This document shows, in pieces, positions 5,597-34,823 of a stretch of DNA of 49,121 nucleotides. Both the position numbers and the translations under genes were made by a program. Source of the DNA: a virus; the IMG/VR virus record IMGVR_UViG_3300025325_000038, positions 1-49,121 of that record; one strand, written 5' to 3'. Below the pieces are notes generated by a model. It saw only the letters and a list, made by a program, of their open reading frames with translations, ran no database searches and had not been told where the DNA came from. Each line of letters opens with the position of its first letter. The stretch's first letter is position 1.

Positions 5597-5748
5597 GCAG
5601 GACTATGGCCAGCCTTCGACGAGAGATCATCGGCGACTCTGTCTATCGAGCCCGACTGCTCACCAAGCTCATCGCGCTCATTCGTGAGGACGAGAGACGA
5701 AAGGTGCTTGATGGCCTTGACCGAGCGTCTGCTCGGAAGGACCAATGA
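5593..5748 (+). CDS. 51-residue basic helical protein
   Basis: This short gene begins at the ATGA overlapping the preceding stop and ends in an ATGA that starts the next gene. The 51 residues are predicted to be mostly helix and strongly charged (RRE, REDERRK). No family is recognised. Support comes from tight coupling on both sides. Confidence 0.5.
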   Translation: MSRTMASLRREIIGDSVYRARLLTKLIALIREDERRKVLDGLDRASARKDQ

Positions 5749-12439: not shown

Positions 12440-14041
12440 CTACACATCGAGCGTGCGTGCAGTCGCGTAGAGCCAGTCGACAGAGTTGGGCGCCGTGGTC
12501 ATCACGAACTCTCCGGCCTCTTGATCGCCCTCGGTCCAGTCGATGTCGAGGCGCTGGATGAGCCCTGACTTGAAGATCGACAGCGTGCCCGAGATGTACC
12601 CGAAGGGGATCGAGAATGTCGTCGTCGTGTCGTCCGTAGCCGGAGTCGGGGTGCCCTGATAGAAGGCCCCGTACGAGGTCTCGGTATCGGCGTCGGTGAC
12701 GACCTGCAGATTGATCGCGGCGACCTCAGGCTCGCGCTTGCGGAGGTACTTCCAGAGCAGGAACGGGTCCTCGTTTCGGAGGTCGAACATGCCCCTGAAC
12801 TCGACGTGGGCCTTCCCGTTCTTGGCTCCTGAGGGGAAAGAGATCTTGAGCGCCCGGAGGGGCAGGAACTTGTTGAACGGGGTGACGCCCCCATCTTCGC
12901 TGAAGGCCCACAACTGGATCGGTAGGATGTCACCCGGGTAGAGATGCCTCGGCACTCCGGCGATCGAGGGCACGTCCTTCGTGTGCCACATGAAGCTGTA
13001 TGCCCACTGCGGGAAGCGCAGGCCGCGCGGCCCCTCGCCGACGACTGAGCCCGGGCCAGATGGACTGCCCGGGTCGCCAGCAGCATTGCCGAAGACGATG
13101 ACGTTCGCCCGCTGGTCGACGGTCGCCTGCGTCTTGAAGTTGGTCTCGTTGAAGTGCGTTTCTGCTCGCTGCCAGCGGTCGTGGATGTCCTCGAGGTCGG
13201 TATCCGTAGCCCGCTTGAAGACCGTCGTCCCATCGGCCGCGAAGGGCGACCCGCCCCAGACGAAGGCATCGGTCACGAACTCGCTCCCGTCCTCGTCCGC
13301 GTTCAGCTCTCGGAAGCCCCAGTAGGCACCCTCGAAGCCACCAGAACCGACGATCGGGGCATGGTTCGGCTTGTCACTGAAACCCCATGGAGCCTCGACA
13401 TCTTGGATCGCGTGATAGTGGAACGCATCGTCAGGGCCGATGTAATAGATCGCGCCAGAGAGGTACGAGGACAGGCTCTCAGGGAGGAAACGGAGCTTCG
13501 AGCCCTGCTCTGGCCATGCCCAGCCCTTCGTTCCCTGACCGGTGATGACGTCGATCACATCGTCGATCTTCGTCGTCAGATCGAAGCCAGAGGGCATATC
13601 GAAGTACGTCGTGAGCGCTGTCCTGATGATCGCCCCATCCATCGTGCTCGAAGTGATGTTCGGGGGCGCATTGAGGTAGTCGGTCGTCCGCCTGAAGATG
13701 CGTTTGTCGAGCAGGATGTTGTTGTCGACAGCGTAGACGACGAACGATCGGACCTGCGTCTCATCCTTCCCGTCCCCAGCTGGGAAGAAGCTCGAGCGTC
13801 CGACGCGCAGCACGTATCCAGCCCACATTGCCTGCCCGTCGATCTTGAGCTTGAGCCTCGACCCTGTCACGAATGAGAGCTCTCGATCGGGATCTCGGAA
13901 GGTGACCTTTGCCATGGCCGGCATGGCGCCAGAGCTGACCTCGAACTCGGCCATCTTGATCACGGCGTGGCTGGCAAGATCGACTGTCGCCCCGCCCTTG
14001 GGTGTGACGAGAACCTCGACGTCGCTACCCTCGAAGCTCAT
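12440..14041 (-). CDS. tail hub/baseplate protein (paralog of part of the next gene)
   Basis: This 533-residue protein resembles the baseplate hub domain of siphophage tail proteins. The segment FITGSRLKLKI-like (here SFVTGSRLKLKIDG), followed by W/YxGYxLRVGR and then a DNNILLDKRIF motif, closely tracks residues 590-700 of the 1668-residue neighbour (FITGSRVRVDL, YSGYMLTAGR, ADINILFSKRVV). This indicates a duplicated domain. The C-terminal ~60 residues also resemble the C-terminus of that neighbour (SGTLSIFKSGLIQRLDIDWTE). It is likely part of the tail tip complex. It overlaps the neighbouring start by an ATGA. Confidence 0.65.
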   Translation of the reverse strand: MSFEGSDVEVLVTPKGGATVDLASHAVIKMAEFEVSSGAMPAMAKVTFRDPDRELSFVTGSRLKLKIDGQAMWAGYVLRVGRSSFFPAGDGKDETQVRSFVVYAVDNNILLDKRIFRRTTDYLNAPPNITSSTMDGAIIRTALTTYFDMPSGFDLTTKIDDVIDVITGQGTKGWAWPEQGSKLRFLPESLSSYLSGAIYYIGPDDAFHYHAIQDVEAPWGFSDKPNHAPIVGSGGFEGAYWGFRELNADEDGSEFVTDAFVWGGSPFAADGTTVFKRATDTDLEDIHDRWQRAETHFNETNFKTQATVDQRANVIVFGNAAGDPGSPSGPGSVVGEGPRGLRFPQWAYSFMWHTKDVPSIAGVPRHLYPGDILPIQLWAFSEDGGVTPFNKFLPLRALKISFPSGAKNGKAHVEFRGMFDLRNEDPFLLWKYLRKREPEVAAINLQVVTDADTETSYGAFYQGTPTPATDDTTTTFSIPFGYISGTLSIFKSGLIQRLDIDWTEGDQEAGEFVMTTAPNSVDWLYATARTLDV

Positions 14042-17000
14042 GCCTCACCGCCCGGGTCGATCAGGTAGCAGACCCTGATCGGCGTCCCTGCCGGGATCGT
14101 ATCGTCCACGAAGACGATCTGGTCCGGCAGGACCTCTGTGTACTCGGTGCCGAGGCGCTGAAGATTGCCGTCACGCCAAACGGTTGAGCTATTCGCGACC
14201 ATCGCACGCGATGTTCTCACGTAGACGCTGGCGATGATCTCGAGATCTTCGCAAACACGTCCCGAGATGACCGTTTCGCCCGGAATGATAGGCGTACATG
14301 GATCCCCTGTCGGCAGGATGGCCTCGATCAGGTCGAATGAGCGCGTCCCGCTACCAGCCGAACTCGCACCGCCTCGGACGAGGGCCCGCACGATCTCGCT
14401 GGCGGTCAGAGTGCCGAGTGCGAGTTGGGTTGGGTTCCAATCTGGCTCCGTCTCCGAGGCGAGCCAGACCTTCCCACGGATGATCTTCGTATCGAAGTCA
14501 GCCCGCACGGACACCCAGAAAGGGGTATCGTCGAGAGGCAACACGAACGTACCCCCGCCAGCAGCGAGCAGGATCTGCGTGATGCCATCCGGGCGTCCGT
14601 ATCTCAGTGAGGTCGGGTTTGTGGGGCCGTCGGTGTACCAGATCAGCCCACGGCTGAAGGCTGAGTTGTAGATCCCACCCAAGATGTTCGTGACAGTGGT
14701 CGAGACCAACCAGCGGATCTCGACCCAGTCCTTGCCCGTCGCGTAGGCCGACGTGACGAGGATCATGTCCGTGATCTGAGAACCACCCGTGGTCGAAAGT
14801 AGACCCTTGTCGCCATCGACTGACTCGGTAGTCGTCCCGGATACCGCCGTCTTCGACCACGCGTTACCAGATGAAGCCGTGCCCCAACCACTCCCAACAG
14901 TTCGATCGAAGTTGTCGATCACGACGGCCGGGTCGGTCGGTTCGTCACAACCGGGACATGGCTTGTCTTCATAGTCGAAGTCGATGTAGTCGAACTCGGC
15001 GCTGAACCCGGTCAGGTTCGTATTGCCGCTTATCTGGCACTGGATCATCGCCGTGGTCTCTACGTCGTCAGTGACCTCAACGTCCCATAGAGCTGGCTCG
15101 ATGTCCGTCGCTGGCCATGTCTTTGCCCGCATTGCGCCCGCCTCGACGCTGATCTTCAGGAAGAAGGGATCGGAGAAGTCGTGCCCGGAGTCTTGGGCGC
15201 CACTCCCGAAGTTGCCAATCTCAATCTGCCCGAGGTCCTGATACACACTGACCTGCCCAGCGGTGTCCTGACCTGTTCGGACCGTGACGCTTGGAGAGTT
15301 AGAACCGTCGTAGGCAGGCCAGTTCTTGGCGTTGATGAGTAATGTAGCTTCGACCGGCAGGGGGAATGGGAGATCGAAGATGCGCTGCTGGATGGTGCCA
15401 TTCGAGCCCGTGACTGTCAGCTTGCCGATCGTCCCGGTAACCGAGCTTGTGGCTCCCGAGACAGTGCCTGTGCCCCACGCCAGACCCGCGTCGCTCGTGC
15501 CCCAGCCGCTCGTGACCTCGCGGTAGAAGTTGTCGAAGCGGTCCTCTGAGCAGGCGTCGAGACCGGAGATATCGAGGTCATCGAGATAGGACGTGACCGT
15601 CCCAGAGATGGTCTTGTTGAAGCACTGGAACCTGAAACCGCCCTCGATTGGGTCATCACCCGGGCCATAGGCGCTGGAGAGCATCCAGCCCGACGGCTCT
15701 GGGTTGGAAGCTAGCCAGACATTGACACTCAGTTCGCCTGTCGGGTTGTCATAGAAGAGGTGGACCCGGTAATCCTCATTGGGCACCCAATCGAAAGCGA
15801 GCAAGCCAACGTCATCGTGGTCGATGTACCCATTCGGCTCGGAGAAGCCAAAGTTCGAGCCGGGCACGAGCGAGATAGTGCGGCTGGCAGTGAGATTGGC
15901 CCGCAGAAGGTCAAGATGGTAGACGGCATAACCGTCACTGCCACCATGCGTCCAGCCAGCCGCCCGGAACTGGAGCGTGATGTCAATGGAACCACTGGCG
16001 AGAGACTTGGCCAGATATCCGTATGGGGCACCGGACGACCACGCAACGATGCCCTCCAAGCCATTCGTTGACCATGCCCCGCCGCTGGTCACCAGCGTCC
16101 ATGGAATGCCTGCGTCGCTCGTGCCCCAGCCTCCTGAGATCGTCCGTGTGAAGGTGTCGGTGATGCCGCACTCGCACTCCTCCCCCACGACCCTTGGGTC
16201 TGGGATCTCGACCGGTGGGACTGGCGGGATGCTCGGCAACCCCGGATACGGGAGCTTGTCGAAGAGGCTCCAGTCGGCGTCGTAGTCGTGGGAGAGCTTC
16301 AGCTCGTAGCGAACGTCGCACGGGGTCGGGAAGGTCATCCGCATCGACCTGATCGGGAGCACATCATCGAAGTCATGGTACGAGTTGATGAAGCGGACCT
16401 TCTGGCCGACGCGGAGACCATTGGCGTGCGTCACGCATTCGATCTTGACCCTGTCGTCCTTGCGTCCGCGCTTCGAGCTCGGTGAGCCATTCACCACAGC
16501 GTCCGCGATGCGGTTGATCGTCGACTGCTTGTAGACGTCGAAGGCGACGCGAGCGTCCTGCCAGAGATCATGGAGGGCGATCGAGGCCGCACTCTGCTCA
16601 CGACTGAAGACGCCGTGATCGCGCCCCTTGCCGAACCCGAGCGCGAGGAAGTCGTTGACCATCAGATCGGCCGCGTGTTCGATCGTCGACTCCCGATAGC
16701 CACGCACCTCAGCCGGTCCTCCCCCCTCTCCGGGGCCGAGGTTCGAGAGGGCGAACGGGGCATCCTCGATGTCGACATCGGCATAGACCAGTCTTCGATC
16801 GGGATCGAGGTAGAAGATCGCGGCCGGCAACATGGCGATCGTCGCCATCGCCTGCCCCCAGTACATGCCAGCCTGCCATGGGTATGTCGGCTGCCCGTTC
16901 GTGGCTGTGATCTTGGCCACCTGATCGATCATCGAGCTCGTGTCGATGTCGTCGGCTGAGAGATCGAGCCAGTTGTCGACGAGGATCGCGATCGCCTCGT

Positions 17001-19044
17001 CGTCGTATGTTGGGTCGGTGAACGTCGGGCCCTCGACCGAGGCCGGGTTCGACTTCTTGTAGACCACCCGCTTGCTGAACAGGATGTTGATGTCAGCAAC
17101 CTGCAGGACCCATTGCCGTTGGAGGTTGTCGGGATCATCGACCGGGAACCAGAAACGTCGACCTGCGGTCAGCATGTAGCCCGAGTAGATCGGCGGGCCG
17201 ATACCCAGATCGACCCTGACTCGAGAGCCGGTGATGAACTCATCGGTCGTCTGGCCGATGTCACGAATGGTGATGAAGCTCGTGGCTGACGCGCCCTGTG
17301 CGACGGACTCGAGGTAGGTCTGCTTCCAGACCACGATCGAGGTGATGTCCCGGTCGCCGAGGAAGATACGGATGCACTGCGGTTGGCTGGAGGCCACGTC
17401 CGAAGTTGGGCCAAAGGCAGCTCCGATGCCCGAGGCGAGACCCGCGTTGACGCTCCAGTCGGTTGTCGTGAAGACCGTCGGACTGGGTGCTACCCCGGCC
17501 CCAGCTGCGAGCCCGGCACTCGGGGCTACGGATCGACCCGGCTGATACGCTGCCCCGGTCCCTGCCCCGACTCCAGCCCTTGGGGCCACGTTGATGCTCG
17601 CGTCGAGAGCTGACCCGGTCCCAGCGGCCAGCTCGGCTGGGGCGTTCGTCGAGACCCCCGTATCGACCGTGGCGTCGAATGCCGAACCTGTCCCAGACCC
17701 AGCTCCGGCTGGAGTCTCCACGGATGAAGCTGGACCGCCTGCGGCCCCAGATCCGGCCCCCACACCACCACTCGGGGCGAGGAGGATCGATGCCCCGCCG
17801 GCGCTACCGGTCCCAGCTGCTACTTCGGCATTCGCGTTGGTCGCCGAACCACCAGTGTTGACGGTCGCGTCGAATGCCCGCCCCTTCGCGTAGGTATCGA
17901 AATAGACGGGGTCAAAGAACTCCGGGTCATAGACCCCGGCCCCTGCGGTGTCGGCACTGGCGCCGATCGAGACCGATGGCTGGCGTGCGGTCCCCTTGGC
18001 GTACGTATCGAAGAGGTCTGGATCGAAGAGATCTGGATCGAAGAGCCCATCGCCTGCGGTCTCAGCACTGGCAGCGATCGAGACGGATGGGGCACCAGCT
18101 GAGCCAGCACCAGACGCCACCTCGGCGGCGGCATCGTGACCGGCCGAGGTCGTGGCGTCGAATGCGGCTCCGCCTCCAGAACCGACCCCGCCTGAGGTCC
18201 CAACATTCGAGCTTGGACCACCAGCTGAACCCGCCCCAGCCGCTGCGCCAGAGTTCGGCGCGAGCGATACCGATGCAGGTGAGGCTGTTCCAGCCCCGGT
18301 CGCCGCTTCGGCGTTCGCTGAAACGCCTGAAGAGACGCGGAGTCTGGTCATCCATGCGGACTTATAGGTCGTGAGCTCTGAAGTTGAGAGTGTTCCCGTG
18401 ACGGTGGCGGCACCGCTCGACGTGCCACTCAGGGCTAGCGCCGCGCCACCATCGGCTGCGCCGTCGTTGCCTGTCGTTGTCGAGATGGCAGCGGCAGGCG
18501 CCTCGATGATGGTGTCGAAGGTCACCCCCGGCTGGCTGATGCTGGGGACCGTGCAGGTCGTGTTGTCGGTGATGACGTAGAAGAAGTCGACCATGTCGCC
18601 GGCGACGACGCTGACGTGACTCTGGATAGGCGCTGTGATATCGGCGCTGTCCGCGCCCGTAGCCGCACCGCCGTCACCGACCGGGGTCTCCCACGTCTCG
18701 CCGCTATCCTTCATGTAGGACAGAGCGGAGTAGATCGTGGGGATCGAGTTCGAGCCGCCACCGACCGTCAGGGTCGGGTTCGTCTCGGAGGCGGAGGCAG
18801 CTTCCTTGTACCACGCCTGCACGCCGGTATCGCCGCTGCCCGCCCCACCGGCCACGCCGCCGGGACTGTCGAACTTCGCCGCGACCGCCGTCCAACCGTT
18901 GTCGAGCGAGTAGGTGTTGGTGTAGAGCTTTCCGCAGATACGGATGACAAGCATGTCCCCCGCCGCATGCGTCGGCAGGGGAATGGCGAGGGACTCTAGG
19001 GAGGTGTCAGCCCAGCCACTGTCGGCCCGAATATCGATGGGCAC
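14038..19044 (-). CDS. giant tail hub protein with Ala/Gly repeats and three jelly-roll modules
   Basis: The protein has 1668 residues. Residues 1-240 form a beta-rich N-terminal domain resembling that of the protein at 34823-36709 (a GDTWxT-type segment and similar order). Residues 241-553 are about 13 Ala/Gly/Ser repeats of ~20 residues, with an inserted FDPDLFDPDLFDT stretch and a second variant. Residues 556-930 match the hub domain of the 533-residue neighbour. Residues ~960-1160, ~1168-1360 and ~1378-1575 are three copies of a module beginning D/N-x-F-x-R...GWGTSxAGxxW, a LamG/concanavalin-like jelly-roll pattern probably binding glycans. The C-terminal ~90 residues resemble the neighbour's C-terminus. 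It likely forms the tail tip. Confidence 0.72.
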   Translation of the reverse strand: MPIDIRADSGWADTSLESLAIPLPTHAAGDMLVIRICGKLYTNTYSLDNGWTAVAAKFDSPGGVAGGAGSGDTGVQAWYKEAASASETNPTLTVGGGSNSIPTIYSALSYMKDSGETWETPVGDGGAATGADSADITAPIQSHVSVVAGDMVDFFYVITDNTTCTVPSISQPGVTFDTIIEAPAAAISTTTGNDGAADGGAALALSGTSSGAATVTGTLSTSELTTYKSAWMTRLRVSSGVSANAEAATGAGTASPASVSLAPNSGAAAGAGSAGGPSSNVGTSGGVGSGGGAAFDATTSAGHDAAAEVASGAGSAGAPSVSIAASAETAGDGLFDPDLFDPDLFDTYAKGTARQPSVSIGASADTAGAGVYDPEFFDPVYFDTYAKGRAFDATVNTGGSATNANAEVAAGTGSAGGASILLAPSGGVGAGSGAAGGPASSVETPAGAGSGTGSAFDATVDTGVSTNAPAELAAGTGSALDASINVAPRAGVGAGTGAAYQPGRSVAPSAGLAAGAGVAPSPTVFTTTDWSVNAGLASGIGAAFGPTSDVASSQPQCIRIFLGDRDITSIVVWKQTYLESVAQGASATSFITIRDIGQTTDEFITGSRVRVDLGIGPPIYSGYMLTAGRRFWFPVDDPDNLQRQWVLQVADINILFSKRVVYKKSNPASVEGPTFTDPTYDDEAIAILVDNWLDLSADDIDTSSMIDQVAKITATNGQPTYPWQAGMYWGQAMATIAMLPAAIFYLDPDRRLVYADVDIEDAPFALSNLGPGEGGGPAEVRGYRESTIEHAADLMVNDFLALGFGKGRDHGVFSREQSAASIALHDLWQDARVAFDVYKQSTINRIADAVVNGSPSSKRGRKDDRVKIECVTHANGLRVGQKVRFINSYHDFDDVLPIRSMRMTFPTPCDVRYELKLSHDYDADWSLFDKLPYPGLPSIPPVPPVEIPDPRVVGEECECGITDTFTRTISGGWGTSDAGIPWTLVTSGGAWSTNGLEGIVAWSSGAPYGYLAKSLASGSIDITLQFRAAGWTHGGSDGYAVYHLDLLRANLTASRTISLVPGSNFGFSEPNGYIDHDDVGLLAFDWVPNEDYRVHLFYDNPTGELSVNVWLASNPEPSGWMLSSAYGPGDDPIEGGFRFQCFNKTISGTVTSYLDDLDISGLDACSEDRFDNFYREVTSGWGTSDAGLAWGTGTVSGATSSVTGTIGKLTVTGSNGTIQQRIFDLPFPLPVEATLLINAKNWPAYDGSNSPSVTVRTGQDTAGQVSVYQDLGQIEIGNFGSGAQDSGHDFSDPFFLKISVEAGAMRAKTWPATDIEPALWDVEVTDDVETTAMIQCQISGNTNLTGFSAEFDYIDFDYEDKPCPGCDEPTDPAVVIDNFDRTVGSGWGTASSGNAWSKTAVSGTTTESVDGDKGLLSTTGGSQITDMILVTSAYATGKDWVEIRWLVSTTVTNILGGIYNSAFSRGLIWYTDGPTNPTSLRYGRPDGITQILLAAGGGTFVLPLDDTPFWVSVRADFDTKIIRGKVWLASETEPDWNPTQLALGTLTASEIVRALVRGGASSAGSGTRSFDLIEAILPTGDPCTPIIPGETVISGRVCEDLEIIASVYVRTSRAMVANSSTVWRDGNLQRLGTEYTEVLPDQIVFVDDTIPAGTPIRVCYLIDPGGEA
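17386..18324 (-). repeat. tandem ~60-bp (20-residue) Ala/Gly/Ser repeat region, copy set 1
   Basis: About 13 in-frame units inside the 1668-residue tail protein. Typical units are ASxxxAPNxxxAxGxGxAxx, with variants beginning PS or AT and a longer 24-residue form. This set contains two insertions of FDP-type sequence (residues 330-392). DNA copies are too diverged to be recent duplications. Confidence 0.7.
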
Positions 19045-19092: not shown

Positions 19093-22000
19093 TCAACTTG
19101 CCAGCGAGAGCATGCCGGCCTTCCGGCCGATCTCCTCGATGACCTCGTCCTTGAGCCGGCGTACGAGCTTGGTGATGTCGCTGTCATCTCGGATCGAGTT
19201 ACCGGTGATCGTGATCGGCACGTTGATCGTCACGCTTCCACCGCCCACGGGCGCCATGGACCCGATGCGAGGGTTCTTGACGATCGCGATGCCCTCCTTG
19301 TTGGCCTCACCGAAGAGCGCCTGAGTCGGGCTGAGCGCCACACCGACGATGCCCTCGGCGTGTCCGCCGGTGGCCGTTGAGCTTCGTTCGTTCCCGCGAT
19401 TGATGGTGATGCCGAGCGCCTTCTCGATGTACCTCGTCGCCATCGCCACAGTGCCCGCGTACATGGCCGTGAAGCTCGCGGCCAGCTGGAGCTTGTTGTT
19501 GAAGTTGTTGGTGGCCTGACCGAAGAGCGACTGCGCGTCCTGCTGGAGCCGGGCTTGCTTCATGCCGAGGGCCACGATGTGCTTCTGGGCTGCGAGCTGT
19601 TCCTGCTCGAGCGCATGTGAGGCCTGCAGGATCTCTCGCTGGGCTTCCAGATCGGCGACCTGCCGGGTGGTCTGAATGCCGAAGGCCTGCCCCTCGAGAC
19701 CGAACTGCTTCTGGGCGATCGCGAGCAACGCTGTCGCGATGTCCTGCTGCTGCTGGGCGAACTTGGCCTCGGCCTTGGCCTCCTCCATCCGGGCAGCTCT
19801 CTCCTCGCCGCTGATGCCAACTGCTTGGAACCCGGCGAGCGCCGTCTGGAAGTTGATCTGGCGCTGGTTCATCGCCAGCGATAGACCTTGACTCTGGAGA
19901 CCAAGGGCGCCGGACTCCCGCCCGAGCTCGTACTGCCGCCGCTCGATGATGCCGAGCCTGCTCCCGCCGCCCATGCCGGCGAGCCCTCGTGCGTCTCGGA
20001 TGCTCCGGCTCAGGATCCGAAGCGACAGCCCGTACTGCATCGCGTTGACTTGAGCCTGCCGGTCGGCGAGGGCGGCATTGATATTGGCGATCTGCTGGCC
20101 GTACGCCTCGACCTGACGCATGTTCGCCCGGAACTGGTTGCCAGCGGTCATGCCACTGGGCTGGATCTCGGTGACATTCCGGTCGATGAACTTGGCCTGC
20201 TCCTCGACAGCGGCATGCGCTTCTGCTGTCAACTCCTTCTGGAGCCTGTTGATCTCGCCGAGGTCAGTGATAGTCGACTGGAAGCCCTTACCGGCATTGG
20301 CCAGCCCGGTCTCGGCAGGCGCGAATGGATTGGTGAGGATCTGTTGCCCGATGGCGCCCGGAATAGCGATGCCTCGCTCGAACTGGCCTTGCTCTTGTGC
20401 GAGCTGCTGCTGGGCGATGAGCTGCTGTCGGTTGGCCTTGAGGAAAACGTCCTTGGCCGGGATCGTGAGCCCCTGAGCCAGCTGGCTGGTCGCCTCGATG
20501 ATCTTCTTCGAGTCGGTGATCAGATTGCCGCGCGCATCGAGGAAGACCTCACCGGCTCCCGCGAGGTCCCGAATAGTCTGATCGAGCGCCTCATCGGCGG
20601 CGATCCGCTTGGCTCGTGCATCTTCCTCCCCGACGTTGACGAGCTGGGGCCCGGGTGTAATCAGACCTTGCGCTGTCCGCCCCCGGGCGATCGCCTCATT
20701 GACGTAGTCGATGGTCTCCCTCTGAACATCGGCCTGCTCTTGTGTTTGGGCAGGCTCTGGCCCAAGCAGTGAGCCAATCCCCTTGCCGCTCTTGTTCTGT
20801 TCGCGGAGCCACTGGGCGACCATGTCGCCGATGGGATCACTCGACCCAACAAGCGTCGGTGTCGTCGTCGCTTTGGCTGTTCCGGCGATGGTTTCGAGAA
20901 GGCCCCTACCACCGCCGAGCTGCTCGCCGAAGAGGGCGGAACCGAAGAGGCCGCCATACCCACCCAGCAGTCCCTGCGGGGCCCCTGTCCCGAGGGCGGC
21001 GCGGAAGAGCTCGTCGGCCGAAGCCGCCTTCTGGGCGCCAGCCTTGGCAAAGATGCCGCCACCAAGCTGTTGCTGCAGGAAACTGGCATTGCCACCGGAG
21101 AGACCAGCCTGAATGCCCACCTGACCGAAGAGCGTGCCGAGGGTTCCGGCCTGCGGGAGCTGCTCGGCAAGCCCCTTGCTGACGCGCGCGTTGACCGCCG
21201 TGAAGCCAGAGAGCCGATCGATGATCGGGGAGATCGACTTGACCGACAGATCGATCGCCGCCGAGACCGCCTGAGAGGCTGCGCTGTAGACGAAGCCTGC
21301 GGCCGTTAGGCTGGCGATGTTCGTCAGCGCTCCACTGGTCGCCTCACTGAAGGCCTTCGTGGCTTCCGCCTTGAGGCCCTCCTGCTTGACGATATCGCTA
21401 GCGGTGATATCGATCGCTCTGCTGACATCGGCGAGATCCTTCGAGAGGCTCTTGAACCGCTGCTGGCCCTTCTTCGTCGTCGTATCGAGACCAGAGATCT
21501 CGTTCTTGAGTGTCTCGCTGGTCTTCGTCAGAGCGCCGAAGGACGCGATCAGTCCGACGAGCGGACGCTCCTGCTCGAGGGCTTGGAACTGCTTCTCGTA
21601 GAACTCGCCTCGCTGCAGGGCCTCACGGCGTCGCTCGCCGCCGAAGAAGCCCCTGAAGAGTCCGCCGAGTCCCTGACGGGCGCTCAGTCCACGTTCAGTC
21701 GTCTGGAGACGCAGTCTGGCCTCTGCGAGGGCATTGTTCTGCTCTTCAAAGGTTGATAGATCGCCCAGCCCCCCACCGACAGCCGAGACCTGCGCTTGGG
21801 CGCCCCGGCTGAGGGCCGAGAGGCGCCTCGTCTCAGCGCTGGCTCGAGCTCGTCTGGCCCGTTCCCTCTCTGCTCTTCGTACCGCCTCCTCGGCCTCGAA
21901 GCCGGCCTCGAAGCCACCGTACATGCCCTCATATCCGCCCGGGGCCGCTCCACCTTGGGCCCTCGGGATCTTGTTCATGAGGTTGTTCGGGATGATCCAA

Positions 22001-24651
22001 CCATCGCTCGGGGCCTGCCAGACCATCGGCCCTCGACCGCCGATCTCCTGCATCCTGCCCGGGCCCGGTCGTGCGCTGCCGATCGCTCGGCCGCCCGGGA
22101 TCTTCTCCGCGACGTTCCGTGGGATCAGGTGCTCGAGCTCTGAAGGAACGAAGAGTTCCCGACCGAGCTCGGCGGTGATATACGTCCCGGCAGGGCCACC
22201 CTTCGCTCGTGCCCTGACGGTAGATGAACGCTCCTTGGCGCTCAGCTTGTCGAGGAAGGCGCCGAAGCCTTGCTTCCGGAACCGTTCAGCACCCGTGACT
22301 CCGCCCTCAACGCCGCTGAACAGCTCGGCGAACGCTTCACTCTTGAAGCCCTTGTTGGCATACGGAGAGAGCGAGCGAAGGTCGTAGAGATCAGTCTGGT
22401 AGCGCGGGCCAGTTCCATGCGTATAGTCGACCGCATGTCCGAACTCATGTCTGAAGACTCCGGCCAGTGAGGGATCGACGAGCGTCCGCTCGAGCATCTT
22501 CCTGATATCGGGGCCCCATCGAGCGGCGCGGTTCTGGAAGAGCATCCTCGAGCCGTATGAAGCCGGCGAACCCCTGACAACATCGAACGGACTCGAGCGA
22601 AGGCGAGCGATCGTTGTCTGCCCTTCTCGATCGACGCGCTCCGTCATCGGATCGAATGCGACAGCGCGCATGTTCTTCGCCGTCAGCGGATAGCGCTCAA
22701 CGAGTGGGCCAGCTGTATCAGCGATCTCCCTGAGGGCTTTCTCGCTGAACCGATCGAGCCGGATCTTGGCGTTGGGGAACATGCTCTGAATGGCATCGAT
22801 GGCACCGCCACGAGCAAAGCCGGGCAGCTTCATCTGGTTCGGTGCTGGGTCTCCTCGTCGGCGGATGGTCTCGATCTCTTCGCCAGCGCCGAGGTTATAG
22901 AAGGCCTGCTGCGCCTCCCGCCGAGAGAGGACCATGGCGGCCCTCTTGCGAGCTTCGACCTCGACCGGATTGAGATGGATGTTGCCCTCGCTCAGCCACG
23001 TGCCAGTGAACGGGGCACCCATCTTCTGGATGCGCCTGAAGCCCCTGATGAAGGAGAGGCGGTCCCCTGCCCCGATGATCTCTTCGCCTGCATTGAGGCC
23101 GACGGCATAGCCCCTCGAGGGCTGCTGCCCGCCGGGACCGAAGGTGCCGCCCCCCTGCTCGATCGTGCGTCGGTAAGCCTCAGCTCGCCCACCACGCCAG
23201 CGGGTCAGTCCCTGCCAGATCGGCCTCGGGCCGCCCTCTTCCTCGTCGAGCTGGGCGTAGTAGGCCTCGAGCTCGTCGTCTCCCGGGCGCATCATCCATG
23301 GCCGTCGACCTCGACCCCTGCGACCGAAGGTCGGCATGATCGCCTGCTGGTGGGTCCTAGTCCCGTAGTGCCTCGAGAACGATCCACGATACGGGTGGCC
23401 GAAGGCATCGACCTTGCCGCCGAGGCCAAACGGCAGCGGCATCTGTCCCGGAGCCTGACCAGCCTGCTCCTTCTCGAGGAGCCAGAGCGCAGCCTGATAC
23501 GGAGCATTCTGGGTTCCGTGTTCAGCTGCGGCCGTTCGCCACGAGCTCTCCATAGCGGATCGAAGAGACCTCGGCGGACTATCCAGTGCTCCCCTCGTGG
23601 TCGACCTCGTCGCCCATCGATCGAGGACGATGGCGTCGAGATCCCCAGACAGTCCGGCGTAGAACTGGCCCACCTTCGGTGACGATCTGAAGGCCGAGCT
23701 CGGGGGTTGCCCGCCGAGGATCGCTGCCGCCTTCCGATGGGCATCAAGGTTCGTCGAGTACGGGAACGGCTGGCCACCTGCATGGGCCGCGAGGACTCTC
23801 TCGAACTTCGTCCGGTTCGAGGTCCATGAGGTTCCAGCCGAGAGCGCAGCGAGGACGCCGAGTGCTTTCTCATCGGCCACCTTGTACTTGGCGGCTTGCG
23901 CTCGGCCGTATGCGCCAGCCTCGCGATACCAACGTTCTCCGCCCTCGATGTGACGAGGCTGAAGACGAGCGGCGGTTGCCCTGAGGTTGCCAGCGAAGTC
24001 GAGCTGCTCTGGCGTCAGGCGAGCGGCCACGCTCCTGCCACGAGCGGCATGCGGCAGCTGCTCGATCCGCCCCGCGACGGTCGGGCGAAAGATCTCATTG
24101 GGATGCACGATGTATGAGCCGGGAGGCGAGACGGAGCCCCCGGCGGCTCGTGATGGCAATCCAGCTCGCCCGGCCTGTGCAGCCACCGTCGGGCTGGCCA
24201 GCTGTCTGGCCGCCCGAACGATCGAGGCCGGATCGATCGTGACCTTGATCGGGACCTCGCCGATACCACGAGCGATCTCGCTACGAAGCTGGGCGTACGG
24301 GATCCGTGCGAGCTTGATCGGAACCCCGACGGCCTCACCTCGCGCCGACAGCGCACGCATCTGGGCGTTGATGTCGACACGCAGATCCCTGACCGCGCCA
24401 GCGGAGACTTGGAAACGAGGCGAGACACGCGGCTGAGCGCCGATGCCGGGCATCGCGACCGCCACACCCGGCGGCTGAACGCCACCCCCGCCACCGCCCC
24501 TCCCGGGAGCGACAGCGACACCGATGGTGATGTTCCGGGCGGCGTCCTGCAGGCTTTTCAGCTCTGACTTGGCTCGCGCGATGCCAGAGCTGAAGCCAGC
24601 CGTTTCCAGACGGAGGTCGAGTGCGATCCCGCTGACGTTCTCTTCGGCCAT
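19093..24651 (-). CDS. tail tape measure protein with embedded metallopeptidase-like domain
   Basis: At 1852 residues this is the longest gene. Its start VSGIALDLRLETAGFSSGIARAKSELK and its Ala/Gln-rich coiled-coil second half, with hydrophobic patches (for example near 1190), fit tape measure proteins that set tail length and span it. The C-terminal TINVPITITGNS and KDEVIEEIGRKAG segments are also typical. Unusually, residues ~210-390 read like a DUF7178-type helical domain (GQFYAGLSGDLDAIVLDRWA). Residues ~620-800 carry HEFGH (735-739) and SEAFAELF ~33 residues later, a gluzincin-like zinc peptidase pattern. TAELGRELFVPSELEHLIP is a common tape-measure segment. By the usual ~1.5 A per residue rule the tail would be under 280 nm. 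Confidence 0.8.
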   Translation of the reverse strand: MAEENVSGIALDLRLETAGFSSGIARAKSELKSLQDAARNITIGVAVAPGRGGGGGGVQPPGVAVAMPGIGAQPRVSPRFQVSAGAVRDLRVDINAQMRALSARGEAVGVPIKLARIPYAQLRSEIARGIGEVPIKVTIDPASIVRAARQLASPTVAAQAGRAGLPSRAAGGSVSPPGSYIVHPNEIFRPTVAGRIEQLPHAARGRSVAARLTPEQLDFAGNLRATAARLQPRHIEGGERWYREAGAYGRAQAAKYKVADEKALGVLAALSAGTSWTSNRTKFERVLAAHAGGQPFPYSTNLDAHRKAAAILGGQPPSSAFRSSPKVGQFYAGLSGDLDAIVLDRWATRSTTRGALDSPPRSLRSAMESSWRTAAAEHGTQNAPYQAALWLLEKEQAGQAPGQMPLPFGLGGKVDAFGHPYRGSFSRHYGTRTHQQAIMPTFGRRGRGRRPWMMRPGDDELEAYYAQLDEEEGGPRPIWQGLTRWRGGRAEAYRRTIEQGGGTFGPGGQQPSRGYAVGLNAGEEIIGAGDRLSFIRGFRRIQKMGAPFTGTWLSEGNIHLNPVEVEARKRAAMVLSRREAQQAFYNLGAGEEIETIRRRGDPAPNQMKLPGFARGGAIDAIQSMFPNAKIRLDRFSEKALREIADTAGPLVERYPLTAKNMRAVAFDPMTERVDREGQTTIARLRSSPFDVVRGSPASYGSRMLFQNRAARWGPDIRKMLERTLVDPSLAGVFRHEFGHAVDYTHGTGPRYQTDLYDLRSLSPYANKGFKSEAFAELFSGVEGGVTGAERFRKQGFGAFLDKLSAKERSSTVRARAKGGPAGTYITAELGRELFVPSELEHLIPRNVAEKIPGGRAIGSARPGPGRMQEIGGRGPMVWQAPSDGWIIPNNLMNKIPRAQGGAAPGGYEGMYGGFEAGFEAEEAVRRAERERARRARASAETRRLSALSRGAQAQVSAVGGGLGDLSTFEEQNNALAEARLRLQTTERGLSARQGLGGLFRGFFGGERRREALQRGEFYEKQFQALEQERPLVGLIASFGALTKTSETLKNEISGLDTTTKKGQQRFKSLSKDLADVSRAIDITASDIVKQEGLKAEATKAFSEATSGALTNIASLTAAGFVYSAASQAVSAAIDLSVKSISPIIDRLSGFTAVNARVSKGLAEQLPQAGTLGTLFGQVGIQAGLSGGNASFLQQQLGGGIFAKAGAQKAASADELFRAALGTGAPQGLLGGYGGLFGSALFGEQLGGGRGLLETIAGTAKATTTPTLVGSSDPIGDMVAQWLREQNKSGKGIGSLLGPEPAQTQEQADVQRETIDYVNEAIARGRTAQGLITPGPQLVNVGEEDARAKRIAADEALDQTIRDLAGAGEVFLDARGNLITDSKKIIEATSQLAQGLTIPAKDVFLKANRQQLIAQQQLAQEQGQFERGIAIPGAIGQQILTNPFAPAETGLANAGKGFQSTITDLGEINRLQKELTAEAHAAVEEQAKFIDRNVTEIQPSGMTAGNQFRANMRQVEAYGQQIANINAALADRQAQVNAMQYGLSLRILSRSIRDARGLAGMGGGSRLGIIERRQYELGRESGALGLQSQGLSLAMNQRQINFQTALAGFQAVGISGEERAARMEEAKAEAKFAQQQQDIATALLAIAQKQFGLEGQAFGIQTTRQVADLEAQREILQASHALEQEQLAAQKHIVALGMKQARLQQDAQSLFGQATNNFNNKLQLAASFTAMYAGTVAMATRYIEKALGITINRGNERSSTATGGHAEGIVGVALSPTQALFGEANKEGIAIVKNPRIGSMAPVGGGSVTINVPITITGNSIRDDSDITKLVRRLKDEVIEEIGRKAGMLSLAS

Positions 24652-24654
24652 GGC

Positions 24655-24864
24655 CTACCTTGGTCCGGAGATCGTCTCGATCGTGATGTTCGGGTGACCG
24701 CCCGTGCGGCGCTGCGAGCCATCTGGCCTTGGCGTGGCACCGACGATCTTCAGGTACTCACGCTGTATCTTGCGATAGTAATGGACGGGCCAAGCCCATA
24801 CGTGTTCAGGCCACCCGCCGAAGAAGGCCGCGATCCGCACGACCATCTCGGAGGTGGTCATCAT
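24655..24864 (-). CDS. tail assembly chaperone 2 (candidate frameshift partner)
   Basis: The 69-residue protein has FFGGWPEHVWAWPVHYYRKIQREYLKIVG, the aromatic/basic helix typical of the second tail-assembly chaperone that lies just upstream of tape-measure genes. Its ATG overlaps the preceding chaperone stop (ATGA). No good ribosome site is present; GGGGGAA precedes the junction. A -1 slip there would fuse the two products, as in phage lambda gpG/gpGT-type systems, or translation could simply reinitiate. The position immediately before the tape measure gene supports the call. Confidence 0.6.
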   Translation of the reverse strand: MMTTSEMVVRIAAFFGGWPEHVWAWPVHYYRKIQREYLKIVGATPRPDGSQRRTGGHPNITIETISGPR

Positions 24865-25229
24865 TCCCCCGGCTTGTCCTCTTCATCCTCCTCCTCAGGC
24901 TTCGGGACCGCGAGATCGGGTTCACGCTCGAAGTGCAGCTCCTGTACGGCCCGCCAGAGGCCACCGTAGAGTCGAACCCCAAGCTCGGCAGCCTTGACCC
25001 TCGGGGTCACACAGGCTGAGACCATGAGCCGCTGCTGGATCCGGTTGTCGACGTCCTCGACGATGGTCTCGTTGCCACCGGCATCCGTGATCGTCCGCTT
25101 CTGGGTCGACTTCTCGATGATCTCGTCGAACTCAGCGATCGAGAGCTCCCTGACCGTGTACTCGGTGCCACGGTAGTTCACCTTCTTTGTCAGGAACTCT
25201 TCCGACCGGCTTGCGGCCCGGGTCGCCAT
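24861..25229 (-). CDS. tail assembly chaperone 1
   Basis: The start is taken at ATG 25229 (MATRAASRSEEFLTKKV), giving 122 residues; upstream in-frame codons (to 25349) look non-coding. The sequence has a beta-rich opening (VNYRGTEYTVRELSIAEFDEII), a helical middle, and a very acidic end (EEEDEEDKPGE) that ends at the frameshift/stop junction with the next gene. Size, acidity and position fit the first tail-assembly chaperone (gpG-like). Confidence is moderate because such proteins diverge widely. Confidence 0.6.
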   Translation of the reverse strand: MATRAASRSEEFLTKKVNYRGTEYTVRELSIAEFDEIIEKSTQKRTITDAGGNETIVEDVDNRIQQRLMVSACVTPRVKAAELGVRLYGGLWRAVQELHFEREPDLAVPKPEEEDEEDKPGE

Positions 25230-25240
25230 GGGGCCCTCCT

Positions 25241-25600
25241 TCAGGGCTTGGGAACGATCTGCTCGACGAGCCTGACTCGTTCCATGATGAAGCTCCGGTT
25301 CTGCAGCACCATGCGCTGCTTGGGGCCGGGCTGTGACTCGAGGACCCATCTGCGTCTGGGGTTCTTCTTCTGCCAGACGGTCACGATCGGTTCGTAGTCC
25401 GGATCCTCGAGAAGAGCTTTCTGGACGAAACGAAGAACGGCGTGGAGATCGTAGTAGTTGCCCTCTGGGTCACGAGGGTTTCCTGCTACGTCCCCACGCC
25501 GCGTCAGCGTCGCTGTGACGAAGTCTCCGATATGGGCCCCGAGATCGGCGATGTCGATCCGGCCTTGAAGGCCGTCGATCCTCGAGTACAGATAGGGCAC
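25241..25600 (-). CDS. hypothetical tail-region protein, 119 residues
   Basis: The start codon is GTG 25600. The sequence begins with a hydrophobic/aromatic stretch (PYLYSRIDGLQGRIDIADLG) and continues with mixed strands, including DYEPIVTVWQKKNPRRRWVL and ERVRLVEQIV. It sits between the tail tube and chaperone genes, a position often filled by small tail assembly or chaperone-associated proteins. No family is recognised. Confidence 0.55.
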   Translation of the reverse strand: MPYLYSRIDGLQGRIDIADLGAHIGDFVTATLTRRGDVAGNPRDPEGNYYDLHAVLRFVQKALLEDPDYEPIVTVWQKKNPRRRWVLESQPGPKQRMVLQNRSFIMERVRLVEQIVPKP

Positions 25601-25675: not shown

Positions 25676-26116
25676 TTACAGGCTCCCTGTCGAGAAGACC
25701 AGCCAGTTGCCGGACGCCCGGATCTGCCCGGACGCCTTGAGGGCATCCGTGTTGGACGCGGTGATCGCGGCATCGAGGAAGCCCGGGCCATAGGCCACGA
25801 GGAACTCGAGCCCGTCGCGGTCGTCCGCGTACAGGTAGATCGGGATGTCGTCGAGGTCGGCGGCATTGACGCCGATGTCACCTGACATGTCGAGGTTCCC
25901 GTTGTAGGAACCCGAGATGTCCTTGAGGCCGACGAGGTAGACCTTGTTGGTGTCTCCAAACGAGGTCACGTCGACGAAGTCGCGTGCCAAGGAGAGCGTC
26001 CACTCGGTCTTGACGGCCACCTTCTGCCCAGACCCGAAGCCGGTCCCGGGCTTGCCACCATTGATGTAGATAGCGCCGTTCTTGCCGTGCATGCGCACGC
26101 CGTCGCCAGCTGCCAT
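25676..26116 (-). CDS. major tail tube protein
   Basis: The 146-residue protein contains EWTLSLARDFVDVTSFGDTNKVYLVGLKDISGSYNGN, which matches the conserved core of siphophage tail tube proteins (W-T-L...D-V-T-x-F-G-D...G-L-x-D...S-G-S). Length is near the family norm of 140-180. A GAGGAGAAGG ribosome site precedes the ATG. It assembles into the tube around the tape measure protein. The tail terminator gene is next upstream and the chaperones lie downstream. Confidence 0.8.
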   Translation of the reverse strand: MAAGDGVRMHGKNGAIYINGGKPGTGFGSGQKVAVKTEWTLSLARDFVDVTSFGDTNKVYLVGLKDISGSYNGNLDMSGDIGVNAADLDDIPIYLYADDRDGLEFLVAYGPGFLDAAITASNTDALKASGQIRASGNWLVFSTGSL

Positions 26117-27199: not shown

Positions 27200-27618
27200 T
27201 CCGATCTCCTGACCATGGCCTTCAGCCATTCGGGCCACGTGTCGTCCTCGTTGACGTCGATCACGAGGTAAGCAAGCTCAGGACTTGCTACCGGCTGCAG
27301 AAAGTCCTTCGGCCTCACGTCAGTGCCCACTGGCAGTCGGACGACATGGATGCTCTGAGTCGAGATGTCGATGTCAGCGTCGAACTCCGTCTGCAGCGGT
27401 CGTGAGACGAACCAGCCGTAGACGGTCTCGACCTCATCGGCCTGTTCGACGACATCGGGATCCACCACGGCATCGTCACCGTAGTCATACGCGGCATCGT
27501 ACTCCGCGCTCGAGACTGTGATTACGCTCGATCGAAGGATCTTGATCGGTGTCGTCATCATCGACACGCCGACATCCCTGATCTTATCGAGCTCCTCGGC
27601 GGAGAGGATCGGATCCAT
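27196..27618 (-). CDS. head-tail connector/stopper-like protein (DUF6093-like)
   Basis: The start at ATG 27618 (MDPILSAEELDKIRDVGV) gives 140 residues and overlaps the preceding stop by one base (TGATG). It shows repeated beta-strand pairs (GWFVSRPLQTEFDADIDI, SIHVVRLPVGTDV) and a closing acidic/aromatic section. Its size, strand pattern and place between the connector and gp10-like genes fit the head completion or stopper proteins of siphophages. The DUF6093 resemblance is from general pattern and position only. Confidence 0.5.
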   Translation of the reverse strand: MDPILSAEELDKIRDVGVSMMTTPIKILRSSVITVSSAEYDAAYDYGDDAVVDPDVVEQADEVETVYGWFVSRPLQTEFDADIDISTQSIHVVRLPVGTDVRPKDFLQPVASPELAYLVIDVNEDDTWPEWLKAMVRRSE

Positions 27619-28661
27619 CAGGGCGTGATCTCGAGACACGGGCCCCATGCGATTGCCCCTGTGCCAGCGAAGGTATCCCCGCTGTGCGTGCAGCCCACGG
27701 CGGCGCTCGTCACCCGAACGTGATAGCCGATGTGATCGATGAAGGCGTTGGCCCGGACCGAAACGTCATCGGCGTCCGTGATATTCAGGCCCGTCACGCT
27801 GCCCGTGAAGGTATTGCCCTCGACCAGCACATCGCTGGCCCGGCCCGAAGCACCTCCGTCGTGGACCACGATGCCGACCCCGTTGCTGCCCGAGCACTCA
27901 TCGCCCGAGTCGCAGGGCAGATAGCCACTGACCGAGTTGCCGCGAAGGATGACGGGCCCGTCAACCCCCTTGATGTCGACCGCGTTCTCCCCACCGGTCC
28001 AGCCCCCTGTCCGGGTGCCGCCCTCGTAGTTGAACACGTTGTCCTCGACCACCACGTTGCGCACGTTCCGCCCACCATCGGCCATCTGGATGCCGTCGGC
28101 CCCGATGTCGGTGAAGGTGTTGCCTCGGATGGTGATGTTATCGGCGAGGTTGATGCCCCTGATGGCGATGCCGTGCTGGCCCGTGCCCACGACCCCTGAG
28201 TGGATGTCGGCGAACGTGTTGCCCTCAATGAGGACGTTCTGGGCTCCATTCAGGACAATCGCGTGACTACCGACGATGTGGTCGAAGGTGCAGTCTCGGA
28301 TGACCTTCTGGACCGACGGATCTGCGTAGATGCCGCCGTCAAGTTTGATTGGGCTGGCGTTCAGGTTCCCGTCGCAGAGGATCAACCCTGAGCCCGATGG
28401 CGTCTGGGAAGGCGTGGCCACTGCCGTCGGTCCGGGTGAGGTGGTCGGCGATGGTGAAGGTGCCGGGGCGACTGTCGGGGACGCAGAAGGTAACGCCGTC
28501 GGGGAAGCTGAAGACGATGGTGATGGCGTTGGTGGAGGTACTGTTGAGGATGGCTTCGGCCTTCTCGTATGCCCTGCCCTGTGGTGGGCATCGGTGGTGT
28601 CTGACGCCAAGAGCATAATCCCGAGGAAGACGATGGCCAAGAGGGGGATCGCGAGCTTCAC
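27618..28661 (-). CDS. secreted right-handed parallel beta-helix protein
   Basis: This 347-residue protein begins at GTG 28661 (GTGA overlap). It has an N-terminal signal peptide (LAIPLLAIVFLGIMLL then a cleavage-like region) and a Pro/Ser/Thr-rich linker (~30-90). The remainder repeats N-x-x-I-x-G-N-x-F-x-D/G-I units (GNTFADI, GNTFTDIG, DNVFNYEG, GNSVSGY, GNTFTGSV), the PbH1 right-handed parallel beta-helix seen in NosD-like and pectate-lyase-like proteins. It is probably exported or a virion enzyme/adhesin with a linker, acting on surface polysaccharides. A secreted protein inside the neck gene order is unusual. Confidence 0.72.
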   Translation of the reverse strand: MKLAIPLLAIVFLGIMLLASDTTDAHHRAGHTRRPKPSSTVPPPTPSPSSSASPTALPSASPTVAPAPSPSPTTSPGPTAVATPSQTPSGSGLILCDGNLNASPIKLDGGIYADPSVQKVIRDCTFDHIVGSHAIVLNGAQNVLIEGNTFADIHSGVVGTGQHGIAIRGINLADNITIRGNTFTDIGADGIQMADGGRNVRNVVVEDNVFNYEGGTRTGGWTGGENAVDIKGVDGPVILRGNSVSGYLPCDSGDECSGSNGVGIVVHDGGASGRASDVLVEGNTFTGSVTGLNITDADDVSVRANAFIDHIGYHVRVTSAAVGCTHSGDTFAGTGAIAWGPCLEITP

Positions 28662-32401: not shown

Positions 32402-33619
32402 CTAGGCCTCCGCTGGTATGCCCTCCTCCCGCTCCTGCGGCTTCGTGAGGGCTTCGATGTAGAAGTGGAAGCGGGCAGCCGCCTGATCCCACGAGAAGTT
32501 CTCTCTGACGTGTGCCAGCCCAGCCTCGGCGAGCTCCTTGCGCCGTTCCGGGTTCCTCGCCAGCAGCACCAGCTGCCCGGCCATGTCGTTCGCGTTGGTC
32601 AGGATCAGGTCGACCCCGTACGGGTTGGTCAGGAAGCTGATGCCCTCAACAAGGACACCGCCGGGGCCGACGACCTCGGTGATCGCAGAGCCAGATGTCG
32701 CGAGGATCGGTACCCCGCAGGCCATGGCCTCGGCGATGGTCAGCCCGAAGCCCTCTCCACGACTCGTGGTCAGGAAGAGGTCGAAGCAGTTCATGAGCGC
32801 CACGACATCTGGGATCGGCCAGTTATCGTCGTTGGTGACCATGTACTTCCCGCCACCACGAGAGATCAGCGCCTCGATATTCACCCCATGCTGGGGGGCG
32901 TTGATCTTGGTGTGGAAGACGGCGACCGTCTTACCTTCGACGAGACCCATCCGATAGGCGGTATCGATGACCCGCCACGTCGAGCCGTAGTCCTTCCGCC
33001 CGCTGTTCGTGTCGACACGCCCGATGACGAAGGCATCCTGCGGGATGTTGAAGGCCTCCCGGCAGCCAGCCTTGGAGTAGAGCGGACCGGCCACGATCGA
33101 CTCGATCGGGTGGTCATCGTCAACCGGATGGAAGACGTTCGTGTCGACGCCGTGGTAGACGAAGTGTTCGACTCCCATCATCTCGGCGCCGAACTGCGAC
33201 ATGGCGACGACGTTCGCGTACCGCTTGACGTCCAGCCACTCGGGCGGGATGCCGTATCCGTCGATCGGCAGGTAGGAGAGGACCGGCTGCTTCTGGGCCA
33301 ACTTCCCCTCGGTGTCGAAGCGATTGCCGAGGAGCCGCTTCCGAAGCTGTGGCGCGTCTTCGAGGGTGACCACTAGATCGGGCTCGAGGCGGTCGATCAG
33401 CTCGACGACCCTGTCGTATCCGAGCGGATGGCGAGCCTCGCCTGCGTTTGCCCGGTAGAGCTGAAGCGGTCCTGTGTATGGGTCAGCAGCTCCCCACAGG
33501 ACCGCCAGCGCATGGATCTCGTGCCCATATTGAGTGACGAGTCGTCCGCCGATCTCCTCGGCCACGCGCCCGAAGCCGGTCGGCGTTCCAGCGTCACCGA
33601 TCCAAAGTATCCGCGCCAT
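32402..33619 (-). CDS. GT4-family glycosyltransferase
   Basis: The 405-residue protein has the GT-B layout of family 4 glycosyltransferases: ARILWIGDAGTPTGFGRVAEEIGGRL at the N-terminus. IGRVDTNSGRKDYGS follows, and then SRGEGFGLTIAEAMACGVPILAT, the E-x7-E-type donor binding motif. The chain ends with a helical ENFSWDQAAARFHFYIEALT stretch. It lies in the structural operon between the protease and the fibre-like block. It may glycosylate virion proteins, as described for some phages that carry such genes near capsid genes, or a host glycan. The RmlB-like gene in the early operon could supply a sugar. Confidence 0.78.
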   Translation of the reverse strand: MARILWIGDAGTPTGFGRVAEEIGGRLVTQYGHEIHALAVLWGAADPYTGPLQLYRANAGEARHPLGYDRVVELIDRLEPDLVVTLEDAPQLRKRLLGNRFDTEGKLAQKQPVLSYLPIDGYGIPPEWLDVKRYANVVAMSQFGAEMMGVEHFVYHGVDTNVFHPVDDDHPIESIVAGPLYSKAGCREAFNIPQDAFVIGRVDTNSGRKDYGSTWRVIDTAYRMGLVEGKTVAVFHTKINAPQHGVNIEALISRGGGKYMVTNDDNWPIPDVVALMNCFDLFLTTSRGEGFGLTIAEAMACGVPILATSGSAITEVVGPGGVLVEGISFLTNPYGVDLILTNANDMAGQLVLLARNPERRKELAEAGLAHVRENFSWDQAAARFHFYIEALTKPQEREEGIPAEA

Positions 33620-34451: not shown

Positions 34452-34823
34452 CTACACGCGCACAAGATCCCCCTCGATCACGAAGTCGCCGCCGGCAAGC
34501 GTGATCGTCTTGTCTGCAGAGTCCTTCCCCTGCAACCCCCATCGGTATGTGCCCGCCAGCCCATCGGTGTCGGCTGCCACGATCTCAACAGTCGCCATGC
34601 CCTTGTTGGCGACCTGATCGGGGTCGATGGTCACCCCACCCGGGTCGAGGGTCGTGTCCTTCTTGATGATCGCCAGCGCGTCAGCATCGTTGACGACCCG
34701 CTTGACGTAGAACCAGAGCGTCATGCCCGTCAGGTCGACCGGCACTGAAGGAGTCACGGACGTGTCGCTGACGAGGATGTCGAGCGTCCGATCGTCGCCC
34801 CTCGTGACCGTGAGCGTGCTCAT
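34452..34823 (-). CDS. BppU N-terminal-like baseplate/fibre protein
   Basis: The 123-residue product contains TVTRGDDRTLDILV, VPVDLTGMTLWFYVKRVV, GMATVEIVAADTDGLAGTYRWGLQGKDS and TLAGGDFVIEGDL. This is the strand order of the BppU/phage baseplate N-terminal beta-sandwich that links fibres to the baseplate. Its stop-start overlap (TGATG) with the repeat gene indicates coupled expression. Function is inferred from this resemblance. Confidence 0.6.
   Translation of the reverse strand: MSTLTVTRGDDRTLDILVSDTSVTPSVPVDLTGMTLWFYVKRVVNDADALAIIKKDTTLDPGGVTIDPDQVANKGMATVEIVAADTDGLAGTYRWGLQGKDSADKTITLAGGDFVIEGDLVRV

Follow-up and report, generated by a model that had tools for sequence, protein, structure and literature searches.

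We analysed a stretch of 49,121 nucleotides of viral DNA (IMG/VR record IMGVR_UViG_3300025325_000038; hereafter the window), in which a large gene on the minus strand encodes a tape measure protein of 1852 residues. Our analyses indicate that this protein probably bears, on its N-terminal side, a cargo region of effector cassettes of the type found in phage polyvalent proteins. Three modules, namely a DUF7178 domain, a module without assigned function that we call MID, and a zincin metallopeptidase-like module, are located between a conserved N-terminus and a helical C-terminal core that would act as the ruler. A preliminary description of the sequence had proposed a tape measure protein with embedded enzyme-like domains, with which the open reading frame (ORF), the synteny and the Pfam and profile matches agree. 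Both domains that it named, DUF7178 and a zinc-peptidase segment, were recovered, but it overlooked the third domain (residues 487-600) and the other modules present in related viruses. The features of the gene are as follows.

19093..24651, minus strand: tape measure protein with embedded putative cargo domains, 1852 residues, ATG start
24040..24651, minus strand: conserved N-terminal region, residues 1-204, with a GG / beta-hairpin-like linker at its end, from alignment with relatives
23473..23961, minus strand: DUF7178 domain, residues 231-393
22852..23193, minus strand: MID module, residues 487-600 (GGTF..GYAVGL..GTWL..G.IHLNP)
22252..22794, minus strand: zincin metallopeptidase-like module, residues 620-800
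22435..22449, minus strand: HEFGH zinc-binding motif, residues 735-739
22318..22338, minus strand: EAFAELF, residues 772-778 (SEAFAELF, 771-778)
19093..21486, minus strand: C-terminal ruler core, residues 1056-1852

The gene order of the window is of the siphovirus type. Terminase (45869-47464) and portal (41993-43435) genes, a protease-like ORF, and genes for a capsid protein, an adaptor and Neck1 are followed by the two genes below, and the 1852-residue ORF comes directly after them.

25676..26116, minus strand: major tail (tube) protein (phrog_10528, E 6.3e-7; 62-64% identity in the related locus L007)
24861..25349, minus strand: XkdN-like ORF resembling a tail assembly chaperone (phrog_389, E 2.7e-4; Phage_TAC_5, E 0.0019, which is under the cut-off)

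The C-terminal half of the protein is helical and almost without proline, which is not the case for the other giant ORF of the window (14038-19044). Because a large helical ORF follows the major tail protein and chaperone genes, and shares its core with 19 other complete tape measure proteins of related viruses, we identify 19093-24651 as the tape measure gene by synteny and character.

An alignment of the tail-tube protein was used to retrieve 80 contigs with related loci, designated by L-numbers, and we compared their 40 non-redundant tape measure proteins, many of which are incomplete at contig ends. A tblastn search with the whole tape measure protein against named phages gave no match, nor did scans of viral contigs with single sequences (whole tape measure protein, MID or DUF7178). 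The N-terminal region of the window protein is also aligned in L068/L070, L037 and L007, and its residues 1-402 are 48% identical to L008. In the 20 complete proteins, the homologous C-terminal core measures 854 +/- 45 residues and the N-terminal side 747-1990, and hence nearly all of the variation in length lies in the N-terminal side. Since the core is constant and the N-terminal side variable, the protein is most simply read as a fixed-length ruler with optional cargo. Even in tape measure proteins where no module was recognised, the N-terminal side comprises about 750-1400 residues. In L017 (5084-8044), an in-frame stop codon is present precisely where the N-terminal side meets the ruler core, which resumes in the same frame.

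The DUF7178 domain was confirmed. The preliminary description had placed a DUF7178-like segment at about residues 210-390, and a hidden Markov model search located PF23802 at 231-393 with an E-value of 8.2e-24 and 85 bits, well above the gathering cut-off of 27; phrog_3842 matches the same region (E 1.7e-19). The predicted structure is all-helical, with a predicted local distance difference test (pLDDT) score >90 across most of the domain, and its structural matches in BFVD are stand-alone DUF7178 proteins and ‘ART-PolyVal’ proteins of uncultured phages. Foldseek found no significant PDB fold (OGG1, E 1.8). Lys326 (K326) is invariant, and Asp344 (D344), 18 residues further on, is conserved in every row of the alignment that reaches its column. 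In endonuclease III of E. coli (Nth), Lys120 and Asp138 of the active site have the same spacing of 18, and a profile alignment to Nth, insignificant in itself, sets K326 and D344 exactly on these two residues. Likeness to HhH-GPD DNA glycosylases was not significant in profile searches, in which the best PDB-profile glycosylase reached E 0.58 and hhalign to Nth a probability of 0.3%. The domain probably acts on DNA; that it is a DNA glycosylase we treat as a lead, and claim no membership of that family.

Stand-alone proteins with the same domain are encoded by mycobacterial, Streptomyces and cyanobacterial phages, and two aligned rows keep both the Lys and the Asp. These are separate accessory genes, whereas the copy in the window lies inside the tape measure protein. 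In named phages, only stand-alone copies, some of them annotated as N-glycosylase, occur among the matches listed, and none of the 60 matches listed is an annotated tape measure protein. The ‘portal protein’ of Tunturiibacter phage Tunturi_3 (L003 5965-6561, ORF111) is a 198-residue stand-alone DUF7178 protein, and its annotation is probably wrong.

MID is present in 11 of the 40 non-redundant tape measure proteins, that of the window and ten others. In phages of Rhodococcus and Arthrobacter, weak tblastn matches (E 0.02-0.04) point to proteins that are likely to be stand-alone relatives, and in Rhodococcus phage Madraxi the MID-like gp108 is encoded two genes from the DUF7178 protein gp106. 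As other phages hold DUF7178 and MID-like proteins as accessory genes, the window tape measure protein appears to fuse domains that are separately encoded elsewhere.

The peptidase module was compared in the tape measure proteins of the window, L007, L008, L030 and L043. HEFGH at residues 735-739 and SEAFAELF at 771-778 are exactly where the preliminary description had put them; the HEFGH motif is invariant in all five modules, as are E772 and F774-F778 in the E-x-FAELF helix. Because the segment is homologous in the tape measure proteins of five related viruses, the motif is not a chance occurrence. An Asp is present three residues past the motif in the window, L007 and L008; an Asp at this position has been described for a zincin type that is widespread among polyvalent proteins of phages (PMC5512222). 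Searched against PDB, a profile built from the five modules matched zincins of the lethal-factor type (E 2.1e-5), with the Glu of their second helix aligned to E772, which is probably the third zinc ligand. By probability, the top Foldseek neighbours of the low-confidence model of the module are lethal factor and PPEP-1, with no significant E-value. The possibilities raised earlier that the segment is a coiled coil, lacks a third ligand or loses its motif in relatives are thus answered: neither neighbour is a coiled coil, E772 is present, and the relatives that bear the module keep the motif. Zincins of the lethal-factor and PPEP types have in common with the window module the HEFGH motif and a Glu in the next helix, but the match covers the active-site half alone. 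Scanning 2.9 million viral contigs with the peptidase segment yielded one direct relative, the L007 tape measure protein, which was also the sole return when the contigs were rescanned with the peptidase alignment. Matches in Vibrio phage pTD1 and a Clostridioides phage were dropped (E 1 or more), and an HEYGH segment in L037 was rejected as a homologue since it aligns at the motif alone.

A purely autoprocessing peptidase, which cuts the tape measure protein during assembly or ejection and parts cargo from ruler half without any host target, is the strongest alternative reading of this module. Autoprocessing has been proposed for zincins of polyvalent proteins (P1 DdrB; PMC5512222), 80alpha tape measure proteins are frequently observed in fragments (PMC11661146), and in the window the peptidase is the last module ahead of the ruler region. 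However, the peptidase was recognised in only 5 of the 22 tape measure proteins that bear modules, and its position varies, with other modules coming after it in L007, L008 and L043. We therefore regard an exclusively autoprocessing role as rather unlikely. The absence of the module from most related tape measure proteins also implies that DNA release in general does not depend on it, and makes an essential role in ejection less likely. As one exchangeable cassette among many, the peptidase would fit an accessory effector or cargo-release role better than a core step of ejection.

The 22 of 40 non-redundant tape measure proteins with recognisable enzyme-like modules contain, besides DUF7178, MID and zincin, modules of the GNAT-like, ParB-like, HPr, ART-like, JAB-like and HNH kinds. 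Curated Pfam matches in the relatives include HNH (E 1.9e-9), RamC_N (E 2e-10) and DUF7178 (E 2e-33), and home-made profiles add the GNAT-like, ParB-like, ART-like, JAB-like and other modules. HPr-like phosphocarrier domains, which keep the motif of the phosphorylatable His (LHMRPS / IHGRPS), occur in L034, L024, L066, L068 and L095 (PTS-HPr in 4 of 23 tape measure proteins scanned, with E-values up to 1.8e-18). Known members of the HPr, HNH and RamC_N families act in the cytoplasm. Relatives with the same flanking regions differ in the order, number and kind of modules: the order is DUF7178-MID-peptidase in the window, DUF7178-peptidase-MID-GNAT in L008 and DUF7178-ParB-peptidase-MID in L043. 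On a tree of the tail-tube protein, all 20 rows in the half that includes the window bear modules, although the split is weakly supported. Only one locus from a bacterial genome, L087 on an Anaerolinea metagenome-assembled genome contig, has a related capsid protein; its tape measure protein has an ordinary-looking start and is truncated at the end of the locus, and no module was recognised in it by eye. PADLOC returned no match.

This repertoire bears on where the modules would act. Enzymes known from tape measure proteins are peptidoglycan hydrolases (TM4 motif 3, PMC1796659; an S. aureus phage and T5, listed in PMC6116005), and the structural neighbours of the peptidase include zincins of the PPEP kind, whose substrates are surface proteins, so that the modules might act in the envelope, with the peptidase opening cell wall or envelope proteins on entry. 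We consider this improbable, because Pfam scans of the window tape measure protein and 27 relatives gave no match to a peptidoglycan hydrolase family, and because the HNH, HPr, ParB-like and GNAT-like companions point to the cytoplasm. Their chemistry, together with the precedent of the polyvalent proteins, suggests that the modules reach the cytoplasm.

Comparison of closely related loci shows that whole modules are swapped, inserted or transferred between viruses. L065 and L066 are 99% identical at the DNA level around and within the N-terminal part of the gene, yet hold different DUF7178 subtypes in one slot. A JAB-like cassette (about 260 residues) is present in L044 but absent from L029, the flanks being 87-88% identical at the DNA level. 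L007 and L050 share a 660-bp segment encoding an ART-like module, flanked by RMAGGP-type linkers, with 94.9% DNA identity, whereas their tape measure proteins are otherwise about 45% identical. Certain modules do not differ at a single codon although their flanks do, which points to recent transfer. The density of GG-type motifs outside modules (1.49 per 100 residues) is roughly double that inside them (0.69), which is suggestive only.

Several of the modules are under purifying selection in the relatives, according to ratios of nonsynonymous to synonymous substitution (dN/dS), estimated by simple pairwise comparison of sequences that recombine. Three pairs of closely related loci gave values of 0.02-0.23 for DUF7178, 0.18-0.20 for MID and 0.19 for GNAT, and in two of these pairs the modules had lower values than the remainder of the protein. 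Tail length is usually set by the length of the tape measure protein (PMC1796659), and the length of the N-terminal side varies freely, as might be the case if the domains were filler, that is, relics that have lost their activity and serve to make the tape longer or the tail stiffer. But the core does not buffer the variation in length, catalytic-type residues are kept (HEFGH and E772; K326 and D344), and the low dN/dS values do not fit relics; filler is thus a quite improbable explanation. An assembly artefact that joined unrelated genes in one contig could be suspected, as every module-bearing tape measure protein comes from metagenomic contigs and none from the named phage records searched. 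We judge it hardly credible, since open in-frame architectures recur in many contigs of separate metagenomes, dN/dS is low and the modules have a clustered distribution on the tail-tube tree.

We therefore return to the reading that the window tape measure protein carries effector cassettes. Exchangeable cassettes, in the window DUF7178, MID and zincin, would be inserted between the conserved N-terminus and the helical ruler core of constant length. The protein would be packed in the tail tube and enter the cell with the DNA or just before it, after which the modules may refold and act inside the cell. The peptidase might cut the tape to free the cargo domains, or cleave a host or defence protein; we lean slightly to an accessory effector. 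The tape measure protein of 80alpha runs from the neck, where its N-terminus is found, to the baseplate, where its C-terminus lies (PMC11661146). By analogy, the cargo half would be head-proximal, adjoining the DNA, and the last to leave. The tape of JBD30 is thought to become a membrane channel once it is outside the tail (PMC11445458). For the clade as a whole, we tentatively propose the possibility that the tape measure is a general protein-delivery platform, in which a fixed C-terminal ruler of ~850 residues is combined with N-terminal cassettes that recombine at short Gly-Gly linkers, and interchangeable counter-defence or take-over enzymes enter the cell with the DNA.

The sequences themselves provide the modules, the homology of these to stand-alone phage proteins (clear for DUF7178, weak for MID), the shuffling, the purifying selection on some modules in relatives, and the constant core. 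Several points weigh against the reading built on them. The tape measure protein of the window has no match to a tape-measure profile in Pfam or PHROGs. The peptidase model has a low pLDDT (51.5), and places the active-site helices while the sheet is absent from it. The names GNAT, ParB, ART and JAB are based on motif reading or sub-threshold matches, and the selection figures come from relatives, as the window protein is without a close enough relative. Folded domains must traverse a narrow tail tube, for which extended packing and refolding are assumed, and the phage of the window is uncultured.

Several other genes of the window were noted. Three large ORFs on the minus strand (34823-36739, 36709-39288 and 14038-19044) contain an imperfect repeat of ~20-25 residues (...ASGSGAA..ASxSIAPNGD...) that is too diverged for tandem-repeat detection; two of them lie between the portal and capsid genes, and they have no family match. 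A glycosyltransferase-like gene (32402-33619, minus strand; Glycos_transf_1, E 4e-11) is present within the head gene block, and a nucleotide-sugar epimerase/dehydratase gene (5745-6728, plus strand; E 6e-45) is possibly linked with it. Among the head-tail connector genes, 27618-28661 (minus strand) encodes a right-handed beta-helix protein with a Pro/Ser/Thr-rich linker, with no counterpart there in L007. On the plus strand, 1526-2461 encodes a TOTE-type archaeo-eukaryotic primase domain (E 2.5e-12) and adjoins ERF-like and AAA genes.

The analysis tells a constant ruler apart from variable cargo by sequence alone, and supplies a context for both DUF7178 and the MID domain. Relatives with matching cores whose N-terminal sides differ by >1000 residues make it testable which portion of a tape measure protein determines tail length. 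If the proposed reading is true, the tape measure offers a second route, through the tail, by which proteins are delivered into bacteria.

The closest known systems are the polyvalent proteins of phages and conjugative elements described by Iyer et al. 2017 (PMC5512222). As in those proteins, a single polypeptide, whose gene adjoins virion genes, contains at least two unrelated enzyme-like domains. The zincin, the commonest domain of polyvalent proteins, likewise has an HExxH motif, a downstream Glu and an Asp at +3, and lethal factor was named as a relative of the polyvalent-protein peptidase; ART, GNAT and ParB-type domains also recur, and DUF7178-like structures are found in ART-PolyVal proteins (BFVD). 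From the biology of tape measures, the window protein would also be injected with the DNA. Polyvalent proteins, however, are separate and usually packaged in the head, whereas the window domains are within the tape measure protein, beside a constant ruler. The word ‘tape’ is absent from the main text of that study, and we found no earlier report of polyvalent-type cassettes in a tape measure protein in the open-access full texts searched. The other precedent is formed by tape measure proteins with an embedded peptidoglycan hydrolase domain, such as that of TM4 (motif 3, PMC1796659) and, as cited in PMC6116005 and PMC11445458, T5 pb2 and that of phiIPLA35. These share with the window protein an enzymatic domain embedded in the tape but act on the cell wall, whereas the modules of the window clade are of the intracellular-effector type, multiple and exchangeable. 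What appears to be new is therefore the combination: the effector arsenal of separate polyvalent proteins would be placed in the tail ruler, both ingredients being separately known.
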